A stretch of 64,000 nucleotides of DNA. Source: Sulfurimonas sp. HSL-3221. Its GTDB lineage: Bacteria; Campylobacterota; Campylobacteria; Campylobacterales; Sulfurimonadaceae. Shown here piece by piece: positions 22,729 to 29,584 of this stretch. Numbering within the stretch: the first letter of the stretch is position 1; every line of letters starts with the position of its first letter. The position numbers and the translations under genes are program-made. Below the pieces are notes generated by a model. It worked only from the letters and a program-made list of their open reading frames with translations, had not been told where the DNA came from and ran no database searches. The DNA is taken from positions 868,001-932,000 of the forward strand of contig NZ_CP087998.1 of NCBI RefSeq assembly GCF_021044585.1, given 5' to 3'.

Positions 22729-22734
22729 TATAAT
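22729..22734 (+). promoter_or_regulatory. Putative -10 box for the barrel/RND transcript
   Basis: TATAAT immediately after the mutS2 stop. Transcription would begin near 22741, leaving about 57 bases before GTG 22800. The in-frame ATG at 22743 would then be leaderless. Confidence 0.5.
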
Positions 22735-22799
22735 ATCCACTAATGTACTTGGCCCGGGAACGCCTTGCTGCCGGGCCGGATGGAGAGGTGACGTCTACT

Positions 22800-24164
22800 G
22801 TGAACCGTCTTGCTGCCGTGACGCTGGCCTTGGGAGTGATAGGGGGGTGCGCGCAACTGGACGGAAAAGAGATATCCTCCGCGGCGACCGGCCTGCCCGG
22901 AAGCCTTTCCCTCAAGCAATCCTTTGTAGTGCGGCAACTCGACAACGGCGCTACCTACCCGCAGACCCCCTATGTCCTGACATTGAGCGAAGGCAACTAC
23001 GAGCAGGGACAGTACCGCATCGACGGCGGGCTCCTGCTCTACAAGGGGCATGGCGGCAGCGGCGTGAGCCTCAACCAGATAGCCCTGGTCTACTGGGGAG
23101 ATGATTTCGACTTTAGGATAGGCAAATTCGTTTCCAAAACGGGGGTGCTTGACTATCTGAGCGGCATGGACCTTCTCAACCCGGTCCAGGTGGACTTTTT
23201 TGACGATCCGAATATCAACCTCCGAAGGCTCCCGCAGTGGATGGCGGAGCTCTCCTGCTTCGTCGGGGAGAGTGCTCTGCTCAGAGTGACTCTCCAGCCC
23301 TTTGATGGGCGGACACAGAGCTACATTTCGACGTATGTGGGATACCTGCTCGACAGTTACCTTCCGGACTATTTTGAACAGCTCAGCCGAAACAGTGCGG
23401 AAGGGACGGCGATCTACCGGGAAGTGTTCCTGCCGCTGTACCGCGACGGCATCAGCCCCGCGCTCAAAAGCGATATCGACGCGCAGTACAACGAGCGCGG
23501 GCTGGCTGTCGAAAAAAGCACGATCCAGGTGCTTGCCGAGAGCAGCGATGCGGGGACCACGCTCGGCGCGGTCTGGACGAACCGCTACTCGGAGGTACCC
23601 TATATAGAGGTCGATCAGCAGCTGCTTGACTTGATCGGGGCGCTTCCGGATGGACAAAACAGCGGAGAATCGTTCCGGGCGTACCTGGATCAGCCGGACC
23701 TCAACCCCATCAAGGGTGTCAGGGGCTTTCGCTACAACCAGTACTCCCTCTATGCGGAGGGTACGGTCAATACGTACGGCGTTCGCGCCGAAGCGAGTGT
23801 GCGCGACAGGGTGCCGACACTCAACACCTTCAGCCCCCTCGCCATGGTCGGTTTCGGGGTGGACCGGCAGGCGGGGAGCTCCTATTTCGACCTGGAGGTG
23901 CAGTGGGGCTACCTCAAACAGTACCGCCAGAGCGTGCTGGCGACCGTATTGCTGAACAAGTTCGACCTGACGGTCTACAGGGGGGTGGCCGTGCGTTTCG
24001 ACCACTACCTGATCACCGGCTGGTATGCGGGCAACGCCACCGCGGTGATGCTTCCCAATCTCGTGTTCACCCGCGGCGCCTTTGAAGTCGATCTGCATGC
24101 CCTCTACCACTCTGACGACAAAGCGTACAACACCGTCGGGTTTACGCTGAGGGCGACGTTTTGA
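22800..24164 (+). CDS. Outer-membrane beta-barrel protein, DUF1302-like
   Basis: GTG 22800 is preferred: it starts directly at a signal peptide (RLAAVTLALGVIGG) and follows GGAGAGG; ATG 22743 would put 19 polar residues ahead. About 454 residues of alternating strands with many aromatic ends, closing with GFTLRATF, a C-terminal Phe typical of barrels. The stretch LLNPVQVDFFDDPN...RRLPQWMAEL resembles the NPVD/RRPG region of DUF1302 proteins, which accompany RND exporters. The Cys at the end of the signal region may make it a lipoprotein. The RND permease follows with a four-base overlap. Confidence 0.7.
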   Translation: MNRLAAVTLALGVIGGCAQLDGKEISSAATGLPGSLSLKQSFVVRQLDNGATYPQTPYVLTLSEGNYEQGQYRIDGGLLLYKGHGGSGVSLNQIALVYWGDDFDFRIGKFVSKTGVLDYLSGMDLLNPVQVDFFDDPNINLRRLPQWMAELSCFVGESALLRVTLQPFDGRTQSYISTYVGYLLDSYLPDYFEQLSRNSAEGTAIYREVFLPLYRDGISPALKSDIDAQYNERGLAVEKSTIQVLAESSDAGTTLGAVWTNRYSEVPYIEVDQQLLDLIGALPDGQNSGESFRAYLDQPDLNPIKGVRGFRYNQYSLYAEGTVNTYGVRAEASVRDRVPTLNTFSPLAMVGFGVDRQAGSSYFDLEVQWGYLKQYRQSVLATVLLNKFDLTVYRGVAVRFDHYLITGWYAGNATAVMLPNLVFTRGAFEVDLHALYHSDDKAYNTVGFTLRATF

Positions 24165-26005
24165 AGCTTGGACTGAAAACGGGTGCACTGCTGTTACTGC
24201 TGCTGTTCGGTGCGGCCTTGATGCGGCAGGTTGAGGTGCGTACGGTGGACTGGAGCCGTTTTTTCCCCGGAACGCCTGCTTCGGCGATGCCGCAGCAGTG
24301 GTTTACGGCGGAGCGGCAGTATCTTTTTACCGCGCTCCCGGATGAGGCCCCCCTGCATACGTGGCGTTCGGAGGGGCTGATCGCGGACTTTTACCGCATC
24401 GACCGGCAGGGCCTTTACCTGATGACGTTCAACCGGGAAAACCAGAACGCCGTCCTCGCACGGGTCGGGGGGTATCCGCACAGCGGCACCGCCGTCGTCG
24501 GTGCCCTGCTGCTGCAGGGGTTTTTCGACGACATGGTCTTTTACCTGTATGCGATCGTGCCTTTTCTGCTTCTGCTGCTTTGGCTGCTGACATCGCTGGA
24601 GTACCTGCTGAACATTCTCATCGAGATCGGGGCGTTTACGGTGTCACTGCTCGCCGTGCTGGTGACCGGCGGCGTCGCCGTCGACCCCGCCGCGCTGCTG
24701 GCGGTCGTTTTTCTCGTCATCTACGCGTTGACCCTTTTCAACTATCTCCACTCCGGGGAGATCGGCAAACACCAGCTGGCGTTCGGCATCACCCTCTCGG
24801 TCGCCACGACCGCTTTGAGCTCTCTTTTCCTCTATGCGTCGGATTTCGGGCTGGTCAGTACGTTCGGGAAGATGATGCTGATCGGGCTGGGGGTGCTCTA
24901 CGGTTATCTGATCGGACGGCTCTACCTCTTCAGGCCGCTGCGTCTCGTGTTCGGCTGGCGCCGCCGATGGCATGTGGACGATGCCCGGGTGAAAAAGGGG
25001 CTGCTGTTTCTCGGCGCCGCCGCCGTTACCTGCGGCTTCGTCTGCGCGAAGGCTCCCTCTGTCGATCTGAACCCCATGAACCTTATGCAGCCGACGATGG
25101 CGGCGTACAAGCGCATTGCGGCGTTCGAGTCCGGCCATTTGCCGACGCTGCCGTTCGTCGTCCGCCTACGCGCGCAGAAGGGCGACTTCTCCGAGCTTGA
25201 AACGACCCGGGAACTCGCCGCACTGACGGCGCGGATTGCCAGCGCAGTGCCCGGGGTGCTGCTGGGGAGCCTTCCGCTGGGGTATGAACGTTTTGCGGGA
25301 TCGCCGCTTCGCGATGCGACGCCCGATGCCTACGCCCAGTACCTCCTTGCCCTGGAGTGGCTCGACGGCGGCCTGCCGCTGCTGAGTGCGGATCAGCGCG
25401 AGACCTATATGACGCTGAGTATCCCGATCACGACGCCGTCGTATGCGATTGCCGCCATGCTCAGGCGGCTGCAGGCGATCGGGGAGGCTTCAGCCGATTT
25501 CTCGGTCGGCATACTGGGCAAGATTGCCGATTTCGAACACTTCCTGAGACGTTTCTTCGGGGAGTTCCTGATCGGTGTCGGCATCTCGCTCGGGTTCGTC
25601 GTGCTCTTTTTCCTGCTTTACTGCCGGACATGGAAGAGCATCATCGTCGTCGTGCCGCCGCTGCTTTCACTGCTGCTGCTGGCAAGCGTTCACCGCCTGC
25701 TGGGGATGGACTTCACCATGATCACGCTGCTTGGCACTGTTCTGTTCATCGGGCTGGTGACGGATTCGATCATCCATCTTTTCATCTGCATGAAACAGGA
25801 GGGGTATGCCTGCATCGGCAGCGTGATGCGTCCGATCATCGTCTCGAACACGACGATGCTGATCGGGCTGGGCGGAATGCTGTTCGGCGGAACGATGATC
25901 CAGCGCTTCGGCATGGAACTCGGGATCCTGCTGGCGGCGAACCTCGCCGTCGTGGTCTACCTACTGCCGCTGCTGCTGAAGCGCTACTTCATCCGCTGCA
26001 GGTGA
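24161..26005 (+). CDS. RND/MMPL-type permease, compact
   Basis: 614 residues from a TTG overlapping the upstream stop. Layout is two halves of about six helices: helix 1 at 5-22, a short periplasmic loop to about 125, helices 2-6 to about 260, helix 7 near 285, a second periplasmic domain to about 465, then helices 8-12. The MMPL-type motif GLVTDSIIHLF places Asp535 in the tenth helix, where RND pumps relay protons; the equivalent place in the first half (ALTLFNYLHSG) lacks an acid. Probable cargo is lipid or hydrophobic, by analogy with HpnN-like and DUF1302-linked RND systems. Confidence 0.8.
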   Translation: MKLGLKTGALLLLLLFGAALMRQVEVRTVDWSRFFPGTPASAMPQQWFTAERQYLFTALPDEAPLHTWRSEGLIADFYRIDRQGLYLMTFNRENQNAVLARVGGYPHSGTAVVGALLLQGFFDDMVFYLYAIVPFLLLLLWLLTSLEYLLNILIEIGAFTVSLLAVLVTGGVAVDPAALLAVVFLVIYALTLFNYLHSGEIGKHQLAFGITLSVATTALSSLFLYASDFGLVSTFGKMMLIGLGVLYGYLIGRLYLFRPLRLVFGWRRRWHVDDARVKKGLLFLGAAAVTCGFVCAKAPSVDLNPMNLMQPTMAAYKRIAAFESGHLPTLPFVVRLRAQKGDFSELETTRELAALTARIASAVPGVLLGSLPLGYERFAGSPLRDATPDAYAQYLLALEWLDGGLPLLSADQRETYMTLSIPITTPSYAIAAMLRRLQAIGEASADFSVGILGKIADFEHFLRRFFGEFLIGVGISLGFVVLFFLLYCRTWKSIIVVVPPLLSLLLLASVHRLLGMDFTMITLLGTVLFIGLVTDSIIHLFICMKQEGYACIGSVMRPIIVSNTTMLIGLGGMLFGGTMIQRFGMELGILLAANLAVVVYLLPLLLKRYFIRCR

Positions 26006-26007
26006 GC

Positions 26008-26739
26008 TTAGAAGCTGCAGCGGTGCAGACGGTTGTGATGAAAAAGCCCCTGTTTGATATCGCGCGAGACGCTCTCGGTGTCAACCATGTAGGTCAGCTT
26101 GCGTGACTTGATGAGGTCGTTGACCTGCCAGCGGGTGATGAGCAGCTGTTCATCAATGCGGTTGACCGCGTCGACGGAGACGATTCGCTGCAGCTGACCC
26201 CCTTTGAAGATTTCGACTTTTCTGATCACGGAGGTCGCGGCGTCGATGTAGTAGACCGAGCGGTTCCCGTTTCGCCGCAGTGTCACCTTGTAACAGGCAG
26301 CGCCGTCGAACTGTGTCTCCTCCAGCGGATCGAATGTCCCTGTCTTCGCGTCCAGTTCGGCGTAGGAGATCCCCATGCCGACGGCTTCGCTCTCCTCTTC
26401 CTGTTCGGGGATGATCCGTACGCGTTTCAGAGCGGGGAAGTAGATGGCGTTACTGCTGCTCTCCTGCTCCCGCTCGATGAGGATGGCGGTGCATTTGATG
26501 GTTTGCGGGGAGCGGAAACGGATGAGGAGCGATGAGGCGTCCCCCGTCTGCCGTTCGGCGACCATAAAAGAGCGCTCCTGTAGGTTGCCGCTGTTCTCCA
26601 CGGTCATCGTGACGTCGAAACGCAGGTTGCCGAACGAGAAGAGTTTCGCGCTTTTTGCATAGACGGCCTCGGCGCTCTCCGAAGCGCACAGGCTGAGTCC
26701 GGCCCAGGTAAGCAGGGCGGCTATACGGTGCCACAGCAT
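26008..26739 (-). CDS. LolA-like outer membrane lipoprotein-sorting family protein
   Basis: 243 residues from ATG 26739, with signal peptide LLTWAGLSLCASESAEA. The beta-sheet pattern (SFGNLRFDVTMTVENSG, SLLIRFRSPQ, IYFPALKRVRIIP, GISYAELD) is that of the LolA_like family that travels with MMPL/RND permeases. It begins one base after the stop of the repeat lipoprotein gene and ends two bases from the stop of the convergent RND gene. Likely carries hydrophobic cargo through the periplasm; this is inferred from family and context. Confidence 0.78.
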   Translation of the reverse strand: MLWHRIAALLTWAGLSLCASESAEAVYAKSAKLFSFGNLRFDVTMTVENSGNLQERSFMVAERQTGDASSLLIRFRSPQTIKCTAILIEREQESSSNAIYFPALKRVRIIPEQEEESEAVGMGISYAELDAKTGTFDPLEETQFDGAACYKVTLRRNGNRSVYYIDAATSVIRKVEIFKGGQLQRIVSVDAVNRIDEQLLITRWQVNDLIKSRKLTYMVDTESVSRDIKQGLFHHNRLHRCSF

Positions 26740-26740
26740 G

Positions 26741-28840
26741 TCACACCGTCGTATTGGTATCGGATGCCTGCGCGGTGTGCGTCGCAACCCACTCCAGTGC
26801 GCGCAGGGTGATCTCGCGCAGGAGGCTCTGATTGTCCAGCACCGCCAGGGCATACTCCTGCATGTTCGCCATCATCTGCTCCATCGTGCCCGCGACGACG
26901 GTGACGATCTGGTCCTCCGCCGCCGGCGTATACCATTCGCGGTCGAGAATAAGCGCCATCCCCGTCAGCATGAGGTTGGTGATGGTCTTCATCCCGTCAT
27001 AGATCAGCAGCCCGAAATCGAGGATCAGCATCTCCGTATAGACGATCAGCTGTTCGGTGTAGACGATCCGGTCCGCCATCTCGCCGATCCGGTCGGCCAT
27101 CTGGCCGATCTGCACGGCCATCCAGAGGATCCGGTCGGCCATGACGCCGACCTCCTCGCCGCGGGAGGCGAAGAGGTAGCCGAACTCCATCCCCTTCATC
27201 GCGAACTGGTAGGCATCCTCCTCGATATCCATCGTAAAGCTGTAGGCGAGGTCGGCCATATGGGTGGCAAAGTCGTAGGCGTCGCTTGCCGTCTGGGCGG
27301 TAAAGCTGTAGGCGAGGTCCGCCAGATGCGATGCAAAGGCAAAAGCGTCGGTCTCCGTCTGGGAAGCGAAATCGGAAGCCTGGGTCGAAAAGGTGACGGA
27401 CATCGTGGCGATCAGGTCGAAGAGGTCGCGCCAGGAGGCACCGCCATCAAGAAGGTCGCGGAGCTGATCGAAATAGCTGGCGCTCTCCGTCGAGTAGACG
27501 GTGCCGCTTTTCAACATTCCCTGCACCTCTCTCGTATAGGTCGTAAAGGCATCCGTCTGCGGCAGGGCACCGGCACCGAACAGCGTGAGGAAGGTCTCGG
27601 CATCGCTCCCCTCGGCAAATCCCTCCTGCACGACCCCTTCCGCCGTGACCGCCTGCGCGCTCAGCATCGTGAAGAGCTGGCGTACGACGACGGAGATGAC
27701 GGCGAGGGAGACGGAGCGTTTTTTGAGGGTATCAAGCGAGGCTTGCTGCTCCGCGCTCAGTGTGTAGTGTTCGGTAGTAGGGTCATAGCCGTCCTGGAGC
27801 GACGCCAGCAGCGCTTCGGAATGGCTCTTCGTCGTGCCGATAACCGCGCCGACCGCGCCGCCGACGACCTTGAACAGCAGCGCGACCAGGGCGCTTTGCA
27901 CGGAAACCGATCCGAGGAAGGTTTCCATCTGCAGGGTCTCATCGGGTGTCATTGTGCCGGCGGACACCGGGGAGACCGCCGCCGTACCGGCCGCCGCGAG
28001 TTTTTCGAGGGAGAAGAGCCCCATGAGCGCCACCGCGGCGATCGCCATCTTCGCAAAACTCAGCAGGGTATCGCTGCTGCTCTCGAAGCTCAGATCGGCA
28101 GCCGTCTTGTCCGCAATGATTTTGAGCAGCTTGTCGACGGCAAAGTAGGTGAGGGTGGCGTAAAGGAGGGCCCGGGCGTCTTCATTGTCAAAGAGGCTTT
28201 TGAGGTAGTTGAAAAAGCCGTTCATGGCGATCCTGATGGCATCGAAGATGTATTGGAGCGCATCGCCGGCCGCCTCTTTGAGTTTGGCAAGGAGATTGTC
28301 GAAATCGCTGAACTCCGACGGGGTCTCCGTCGCCGTACGGTAGTGCGCCGATGCCGCGGCGACATCCGGCGCACTCTGTGTTGTCTCCTGCAGGCGATTC
28401 TGGTAGTCGAAAAGGCGCATGGTCGCCAGCAGTTTCACATACTGGTGGCCGAACTGCTGATGGGCGAGGCTGCCGTAGGTTTCGTATTTGCGCCACATCG
28501 ACTCCGTCTCGTCGCTCTGGAAAAACAGCGCATTGAGCGGGGAATCGGCCGGCAGGGTCGGGGTCGTCGCGGCGAAAAAGCTGCTGATGTCGACCGGGGT
28601 AGGCTGTGCCGTTGTCCGCAGCGGGGAGGCATGGGTTCCGGTGAGGCCGCCGAGAAGGTTTTCGATCTCGGCGACGGTGCTGTCGTTTTGCGTTTTGGCC
28701 GCTTGCAGCAGTGCGACACGTTGATCGATGGGAGAGAGGGCCGTACCGCCGCCGGAGCCGCCGCAGCCCGATAAGAGATTGATCGCAGGGAGTGAATAGA
28801 GCGCGATCGCGCTTGTTGAGAGAAACTTCCGTCTGTTCAT
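26741..28840 (-). CDS. Large Tat-type lipoprotein with periodic ADLAYSFT/MADRI helices
   Basis: 699 residues; AAAGGTGA precedes ATG 28840. N-terminus has twin arginines (NRRKFLSTS) and a lipobox LLSGC with Cys26 followed by a Gly/Ser spacer, so it should be exported folded and lipid-anchored. The middle has amphipathic and hydrophobic helices (KMAIAAVALMGLFSLE, ALVALLFKVVGGAVGAVIG). Residues 480-620 hold an imperfect periodic array: FASHLADLAYSFT, FATHMADLAYSFT, then MADRI three times and VYTE twice. No family recognised. It shares an operon with the LolA-like gene and faces the RND permease. Confidence 0.75.
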   Translation of the reverse strand: MNRRKFLSTSAIALYSLPAINLLSGCGGSGGGTALSPIDQRVALLQAAKTQNDSTVAEIENLLGGLTGTHASPLRTTAQPTPVDISSFFAATTPTLPADSPLNALFFQSDETESMWRKYETYGSLAHQQFGHQYVKLLATMRLFDYQNRLQETTQSAPDVAAASAHYRTATETPSEFSDFDNLLAKLKEAAGDALQYIFDAIRIAMNGFFNYLKSLFDNEDARALLYATLTYFAVDKLLKIIADKTAADLSFESSSDTLLSFAKMAIAAVALMGLFSLEKLAAAGTAAVSPVSAGTMTPDETLQMETFLGSVSVQSALVALLFKVVGGAVGAVIGTTKSHSEALLASLQDGYDPTTEHYTLSAEQQASLDTLKKRSVSLAVISVVVRQLFTMLSAQAVTAEGVVQEGFAEGSDAETFLTLFGAGALPQTDAFTTYTREVQGMLKSGTVYSTESASYFDQLRDLLDGGASWRDLFDLIATMSVTFSTQASDFASQTETDAFAFASHLADLAYSFTAQTASDAYDFATHMADLAYSFTMDIEEDAYQFAMKGMEFGYLFASRGEEVGVMADRILWMAVQIGQMADRIGEMADRIVYTEQLIVYTEMLILDFGLLIYDGMKTITNLMLTGMALILDREWYTPAAEDQIVTVVAGTMEQMMANMQEYALAVLDNQSLLREITLRALEWVATHTAQASDTNTTV

Positions 28841-29203
28841 GAGTCACCTTTCAGTTCCGTTAGGCCGCAGCTCCGTGCCATGCGTTTGCGGAGCTGCGGC
28901 ACACAATAACACTCTTCATCCGAGGAAATAAGTCAAAGGGGGAGCCAAATCGCCCCGTGCCATGGACGCGAAGAGCACCAGGATGCCGAGCACAGGCACA
29001 GCATAAGAGAAGATTACTTAATTTTCATGGCTTAAATCATAAAAAATAATTATATTTAATGGCGCTGATACGGCGTTGCGGCGGCGGATATCGGAAGAGT
29101 GAATAGCGTCATGTCGACGAAAGAGAGGGAGCGTGGGGAGGCGGTAAAGGCGGCAGCTGCAAACGCACCCTGGATGGCATCGGGGTGGGAGGAGCCGTCG
29201 GAC
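28841..29203. other. Intergenic region between divergent/tandem minus genes
   Basis: 363 bases without a supported gene. It holds a 12-bp perfect inverted repeat (28864-28900) and an AT-rich core (about 29010-29060) that may carry the promoter of the repeat lipoprotein. On the minus strand near 28915-28990 an open frame without a good start reads AVPVLGILVLFASMA, faintly like a protein-sorting tail; it is too short to call. The part next to the hemerythrin stop shows nothing convincing. Confidence 0.5.
28864..28900. repeat. Perfect 12-bp inverted repeat upstream of the repeat lipoprotein
   Basis: GCCGCAGCTCCG (28864-28875) and CGGAGCTGCGGC (28889-28900) are perfect reverse complements around a 13-base loop. 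It lies 24 bases upstream of the ATG at 28840, in the expected 5' leader or promoter, with no T-run, so a regulator site or leader hairpin fits better than a terminator. Confidence 0.6.
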
Positions 29204-29584
29204 TCAGCCGGCTTCGTTGCCGGAGAGGAACTTCGCCAGGTCGAGGTCGTAGAACATCGTGTGGCGGCGGAATTTGTCGTAGGCGTAGCTCTCGATGAAG
29301 GAGCGGGCCATCGGCGGCATCGACGTGATCATGGCAAAGAAGGACTCCATCTCGTCGACGAGCTGTTCGTGGTCGCCGGTATGTGTCTCCCGTTCGGAGT
29401 AGAGGTGCTTCATCATCAGCTTCTCCTCTTCGGCAAAGTGGCGTTTTGTTTCGGTGATCCATTCGCGGAAGAGGGCGCTGTCGATGGCGCCTCCCTCCAT
29501 TTTCTGAAGCTGTTCAAGCATCTGCAGGAACGTCTCGTGTGCTGCATCCATTACTTCGATATTCAGGCGAAGATCGTGTGTCAT
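29204..29584 (-). CDS. Bacteriohemerythrin
   Basis: Di-iron oxygen-binding protein of the cytoplasm. 126 residues, the normal single-domain length. Iron ligand positions are visible as MDAAHETF, RHFAEEEKLMMKH, HTGDHEQL and FRRHTMFYDLDLAKFL. AGGAG lies before the ATG at 29584. It is transcribed away from ligA. In microaerophilic Campylobacterota these proteins buffer or sense oxygen. Confidence 0.9.
   Translation of the reverse strand: MTHDLRLNIEVMDAAHETFLQMLEQLQKMEGGAIDSALFREWITETKRHFAEEEKLMMKHLYSERETHTGDHEQLVDEMESFFAMITSMPPMARSFIESYAYDKFRRHTMFYDLDLAKFLSGNEAG

Follow-up and report, generated by a model that had tools for sequence, protein, structure and literature searches.

A conserved four-gene envelope locus with a compact RND permease and a coiled-coil Tat lipoprotein in Sulfurimonas sp. 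HSL-3221, a candidate trans-envelope transport system

Little is understood of how RND transporters of the HAE3/MmpL type pass hydrophobic cargo through the periplasm in diderm bacteria. What LolA-like and extra subunits do is a matter of guesswork, even for the single tetrapartite system that has been studied. AmeABCD of Castellaniella defragrans is a tetrapartite HAE3 exporter of apolar monoterpenes (PMC6394551). The hopanoid transporter HpnN works without LolA or barrel partners (PMC6394551), and an RND protein, a LolA-like protein, and a LolB-like protein form the proposed transport set of aryl polyene clusters (PMC8253772). Here, we describe a cassette of four genes in Sulfurimonas sp. 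HSL-3221, located at ~22.8 to 28.8 kb of a 64,000-nucleotide stretch of contig NZ_CP087998.1 (hereafter the window; coordinates are positions within it unless stated otherwise). As the initial annotation of this DNA had proposed, its open reading frames (ORFs) encode an outer-membrane barrel, a compact RND permease, a LolA-like protein, and a 699-amino-acid (aa) twin-arginine translocation (Tat)-type lipoprotein in two convergent pairs, with the lipoprotein gene and then lolA running toward the barrel gene and then the RND gene, so that the two pairs meet at the lolA and RND stops. From sequence comparison, we consider the cassette to be probably a transporter of the HAE3 RND-LolA-DUF1302 kind, dedicated to moving a hydrophobic or amphiphilic molecule across the envelope, with the lipoprotein as its coiled-coil scaffold or bridge.

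Likening the locus to RND/LolA-like/DUF1302 sets, as that annotation did, was apt and could be sharpened. Judged by sequence, the RND, LolA-like, and barrel parts match the HAE3/HpnN-type RND-LolA-DUF1302 set, and AmeABCD is the closest characterized system. Like the cassette, AmeABCD combines an HAE3 RND, a LolA-superfamily periplasmic protein, a DUF1302-type outer-membrane protein, and a fourth envelope protein, with the four genes kept together. However, ameABC immediately precedes ameD, the gene of a 787-aa RND, whereas the cassette consists of two converging pairs with an RND of 613 to 623 aa. AmeB is of the DUF1329 type, in contrast to the PF17131 LolA-like protein of the cassette, and AmeC, by its description, is of the COG4447 type, while the coiled-coil Tat lipoprotein belongs to no known family. 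The absence of Pfam and NCBIfam matches for the lipoprotein, together with its predicted all-helical coiled coil, likewise speaks against homology with AmeC (COG4447).

Other described systems also resemble the cassette in part. HpnN is the best solved relative of the RND profile (PDB 6wu0; 3.4e-5 over 82 columns), but it has 877 aa, and hopanoid genes are lacking in most cassette carriers. ApeL/ApeM/ApeN of aryl polyene clusters likewise include a LolA-like protein, an RND, and an outer-membrane-side partner, but this partner is LolB-like (DUF3261) and the genes lie within a biosynthetic cluster (PMC8253772). The sterol proteins BstABC comprise an RND, a periplasmic protein, and an all-helical TRAP-T-like protein, but BstB is phosphonate-binding-like rather than LolA-like, sterol genes are adjacent, and BstC is a compact helical ring, as opposed to the coiled coil of the cassette lipoprotein (PMC10942540). 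Ordinary three-gene sets of LolA-like, barrel, and RND (~763 aa) genes occur commonly in the order and frequently have a TetR-type gene next to them (L085-L089, L091-L094). Their RND and LolA-like proteins are homologous to those of the cassette and their barrels have a similar signature, but these sets are co-directional, with longer loops and both Asp motifs, and without such a lipoprotein gene. Since RND (764 aa) and LolA-like genes of the ordinary type, close to a TetR-type gene, are also present in the window's genome (L090, G000:C1:283-288 kb), the cassette of the window represents an additional, divergent system. New relative to known sets are the shortened RND without an acidic residue in transmembrane segment 4 (TM4) and the fourth subunit.

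The four genes form a conserved unit. Among 150 genomes of the order, all four proteins were found at one locus in a single other genome (G003, from another family), with the same convergent layout and 35 to 44% identity to the window proteins. A lipoprotein-profile search of 399 genomes recovered six full-length genes, four from the window's genus and two from a genus of another family, all in complete cassettes. A contig scan of named genomes with a two-row lipoprotein alignment gave no match; a second, with the C-terminal module, found Sulfuricurvum, Thiomicrorhabdus, and a Thiotrichales bacterium, and a search of the order of Thiomicrorhabdus added two more carrier genomes. In all 12 fully readable cassettes, gene order and convergent orientation are identical and all four genes are present, and thus no lipoprotein gene without its partners, the finding that would have spoken against the initial annotation, was seen among them. 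These cassettes span the window's genus, another Campylobacterota family, Sulfuricurvum, and Thiomicrospirales-type Gammaproteobacteria; the Campylobacterota scope suggested in the initial annotation is too narrow. The flanks change between genera. The barrel and RND genes overlap by 4 bases in 10 of 10 compared cassettes, and the RND and lolA ends range from 91 bases apart to a 71-base overlap. For the four proteins, distance matrices from 11 cassettes correlate with r values of 0.93 to 0.98, as expected of genes inherited together, although shared species history alone would also raise r. Altogether, the constant layout, changing flanks, fixed overlap, and correlated distances indicate a real functional unit. 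Its carriers are few and distantly related, the named ones coming from sulfur-oxidizer lineages in two phyla. Within the genus, the four complete genomes have the cassette, whereas it was not found in any of four drafts, one of which is 99% complete; presence in just part of the genus marks it as an accessory system. One more Sulfuricurvum copy runs off a contig end, and a Thiomicrorhabdus metagenome-assembled genome (G444; L133 = L162) holds a decayed cassette in which the lipoprotein frame is split and lolA is cut beside a transposase-type gene.

The compact permease (24161..26005, plus strand; 614 aa from a TTG start, with a 4-base overlap with the barrel stop) is assigned by sequence profile to the RND superfamily, HAE3/MMPL type. 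Its profile is homologous to those of 763-aa HAE3-type RNDs across both transmembrane halves (hhalign 98.6%, 1.1e-15, 501 columns), which bears out the earlier assignment, though neither the window protein nor that of G003 has a Pfam (MMPL) match of its own; a 762-aa relative scores 6.4e-33. The shortening falls mainly in the first periplasmic loop, which has ~100 aa less than in the 763-aa relatives (hhalign aligns residue 106 to 204). An Asp in TM10 (D535) is invariant in cassette RNDs and the GL..D..IH motif is kept, while the TM4 stretch (IY..TL.N) contains no acidic residue (D/E) in the aligned copies; ordinary 763-aa RNDs keep Asp in TM4 and TM10 alike. A long branch sets the cassette RNDs apart from the ordinary ones.

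The LolA-like protein (26008..26739, minus strand; 243 aa from ATG 26739, with a signal peptide judged by eye) is the only one of the four with a Pfam match, and its assignment is solid (PF17131, 1.8e-18, 67.3 bits versus a cut-off of 30). Its profile also matches 3bk5 (3.6e-4). The barrel gene (22800..24164, plus strand) encodes 454 aa from GTG 22800; the ORF opens at 22743, but the GTG is the likelier start, and one relative starts near there. An AlphaFold2 (AF2) model built with five relatives predicts an all-beta outer-membrane barrel at moderate confidence (pTM 0.64, mean pLDDT 65.5), and 9 of 10 copies end in Phe. The nearest solved folds are 18-strand OprD/Occ, MOMP, and AlgE porins (Z 16 to 18), a likeness of fold only; by sequence, the barrel has no match in Pfam or PDB. 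The protein had been called a DUF1302-like barrel, and while the barrel stands, the tie to DUF1302 (PF06980) is loose: the window protein has no DUF1302 Pfam match, that of G003 scores 17.8 bits (0.0018) against a cut-off of 23.2, and hhalign to true DUF1302 proteins gives 65% and 6e-5 over just 76 columns. In Sulfuricurvum and Thiomicrorhabdus, a fifth gene 5' of the barrel gene, absent from the window, encodes a small barrel-like protein (L130 6423-7202; L134 5737-6522; L131 12843-13589), which matches DUF481 in Thiomicrorhabdus (1.8e-45) and weakly Autotransporter in Sulfuricurvum.

The fourth subunit (26741..28840, minus strand; 699 aa) begins with a Tat signal and lipobox (28763..28840, minus strand; residues 1-26, MNRRKFLSTSAIALYSLPAINLLSGC). 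This N-terminus, MNRRKFL...LLSGC, combines an RRxF motif with the lipobox Cys in all 11 copies checked, in agreement with the claimed Tat-type lipoprotein, and the mature protein is free of Cys in 10 of the 11. The initial annotation had not recognized this partner, and searches of Pfam, NCBIfam, and PDB returned no relative; a PGAP1_TMD match (0.016, under the cut-off) was taken as chance. Its periodic helices are real. Within a hendecad (11-residue) repeat region (residues 486-565; 27146..27385, minus strand), we counted 26 identities at lag 11, compared to a mean of 6 and a maximum of 14 in 5000 shuffles, with lag-22 shuffle tests as further evidence, and the hydrophobic moment peaks at 98.5 degrees per residue, which equals an 11/3 helix. 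Residues 560-620 have 23 lag-7 identities, compared to a shuffle maximum of 12, and three other regions of the protein showed no periodicity in the same tests.

Residues 546-640 (26921..27205, minus strand), in which the hendecad end is followed by GEEVG.MADRI heptads, are near-invariant. The segment of the window is 83 to 88% identical to those of Sulfuricurvum, the second Campylobacterota family, and Thiomicrorhabdus (75% to the Thiotrichales copy), while residues 39-230 and 301-485 are mostly 15 to 30% identical in the same comparisons, and the RND, LolA-like, and barrel proteins are 25 to 36% identical between phyla. Recent gene transfer or gene conversion is disfavored as the cause, because four-fold degenerate sites of the segment are just 15 to 54% identical; the conservation therefore reflects old purifying selection. 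Since a helix that adsorbs to lipid would be expected to conserve composition, not sequence, we infer that the segment is more likely held by exact protein packing, either through self-assembly or with one fixed partner, and it is so conserved that this partner or assembly should be findable. The unnamed hendecad/heptad module deserves definition as a family by itself.

In the mechanism that we propose, the compact RND would extract the substrate from the outer leaflet of the inner membrane (or insert it there), powered by the proton gradient via its remaining TM10 aspartate. The LolA-like protein would ferry the substrate in a greasy cavity, and the barrel would let it cross or enter the outer membrane. 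Lipid-anchored, probably in the outer membrane, the Tat lipoprotein would supply an all-helical body together with a long coiled coil, passing from hendecads to heptads, that either assembles with itself or binds a fixed partner, and would so act as a scaffold or bridge between the two membrane parts. Homology and composition point to transport of a hydrophobe; its route, its energy coupling, and the scaffold or bridge role are inferred. A more specific and rather doubtful version is that the near-invariant coiled coil forms a periplasm-spanning or oligomeric helical bridge, which would replace an adaptor/TolC-type connection and couple the half-degenerate RND to the barrel. Modeled as one helix, residues 486-632 would extend ~22 nm (147 x 0.15 nm), near the width of the periplasm. 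If true, this would be a new RND-system architecture built on an unnamed coiled-coil family used in cytosolic proteins too; in either case, the cassette offers a compact, always complete four-part set and a permease with one proton-relay half.

Several points weigh against this mechanism. Judged from the alignment, loss of the TM4 acid makes proton coupling of the RND uncertain, and sequence comparison gives the barrel a weak link to DUF1302. AF2 predicts the lipoprotein to be all-helical, but with low confidence (mean pLDDT 45.7, pTM 0.25) and in a model too poor for a fold search, so that rod length, oligomer, and docking stand as unproved predictions; alignment depth for the structure predictions was limited. 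Furthermore, the same module (~50% identity) ends cytosolic proteins of ~320 to 430 aa in Sulfurimonas and Candidatus Thiovulum, outside any such cassette and without such an RND beside it, and so it is not transport-specific.

The substrate may be approached through the rival readings of the locus. The cassette might instead keep outer-membrane lipids in balance or export a lipid or pigment made by the cell itself, as do the RND/LolA/LolB-like genes proposed for aryl polyene clusters (PMC8253772), a likeness that is joined by the relationship of the RND to HpnN. We regard this as unlikely, given that a biosynthetic gene cluster was recognized beside none of the cassettes seen. The hopanoid or sterol link suggested by the initial annotation also found no support: squalene-hopene cyclase-type genes were not found in 9 of 10 carriers, including the window's genome, and the tenth has a partial match, so hopanoids were rejected as an unlikely substrate. 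Alternatively, the transporter might move hydrophobic elemental sulfur (S8/polysulfane) across the envelope of sulfur oxidizers. The lineages of the named carriers and the presence of soxB in 9 of 10 carriers fit this idea, and proteins carrying elemental sulfur (S0) across the outer membrane are described as unconfirmed (PMC10045233), so that a sulfur substrate would touch the question of how S0 makes that crossing. However, soxB is widespread in the order regardless (43 of 150 genomes exceed the cut-off) and is therefore uninformative on the substrate; among 11 further members of the window's family that were sampled, 9 have a soxB match, all without the cassette, and G003 has the cassette without soxB. 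The near absence of Cys from the mature lipoprotein rules out thiol chemistry there. Altogether, we consider a sulfur substrate improbable.

A different view of the lipoprotein is that it polymerizes into an envelope filament or coat, with the RND, LolA-like, and barrel proteins merely delivering or placing it. In favor of a polymer, the near-invariant hendecad/heptad module is shared with cytosolic proteins, and small secreted proteins have a related heptad motif. Still, RND/LolA/barrel sets exist without the lipoprotein, which has its own Tat and lipoprotein signals and would need no dedicated route, and we give a filament or coat little credence next to a transporter in which the lipoprotein is a scaffold or bridge.

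As for the layout of the locus, the RND and lolA stops lie 2 bases apart (26006..26007), as claimed, with no terminator-like site at this gap. An own TATAAT promoter had also been proposed; the string is present at 22729, but a promoter scan was empty there and the string is in no excess over shuffles. A 678-aa plus-strand ORF over the lipoprotein gene was taken to be a probable antisense artifact of high G+C. The cassette is flanked by a MutS2/Smr-type gene upstream and, past the lipoprotein gene, by a hemerythrin-type gene (29204-29584, minus strand; PF01814, 2.1e-8) and ligA. None of the three accompanies the cassette outside the window's genus, and the hemerythrin-type gene is unlinked to it elsewhere.

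Our literature searches found no paper on the cassette or the module, and no Pfam family was found for the cytosolic module proteins (L136-L145). These have a helix-turn-helix-looking N-terminus (by eye) before the hendecad-MADRI module, and their genes lie directly after rpsF-ssb in Thiovulum and beside shorter, repeat-less paralogues in Sulfurimonas. Shorter proteins with MADRI heptads and starts that resemble signal peptides have a wider, scattered distribution. The window's genome also encodes, outside the window, two tandem secreted proteins of ~390 to 400 aa with an LRLSDDIG.MADRI heptad motif (G000:C1:1579.2-1581.9 kb; part in L084 7246-8451); small secreted proteins of many Campylobacterota and Thiomicrospirales have this motif too, as do proteins of ~2,400 aa (G185, G196).

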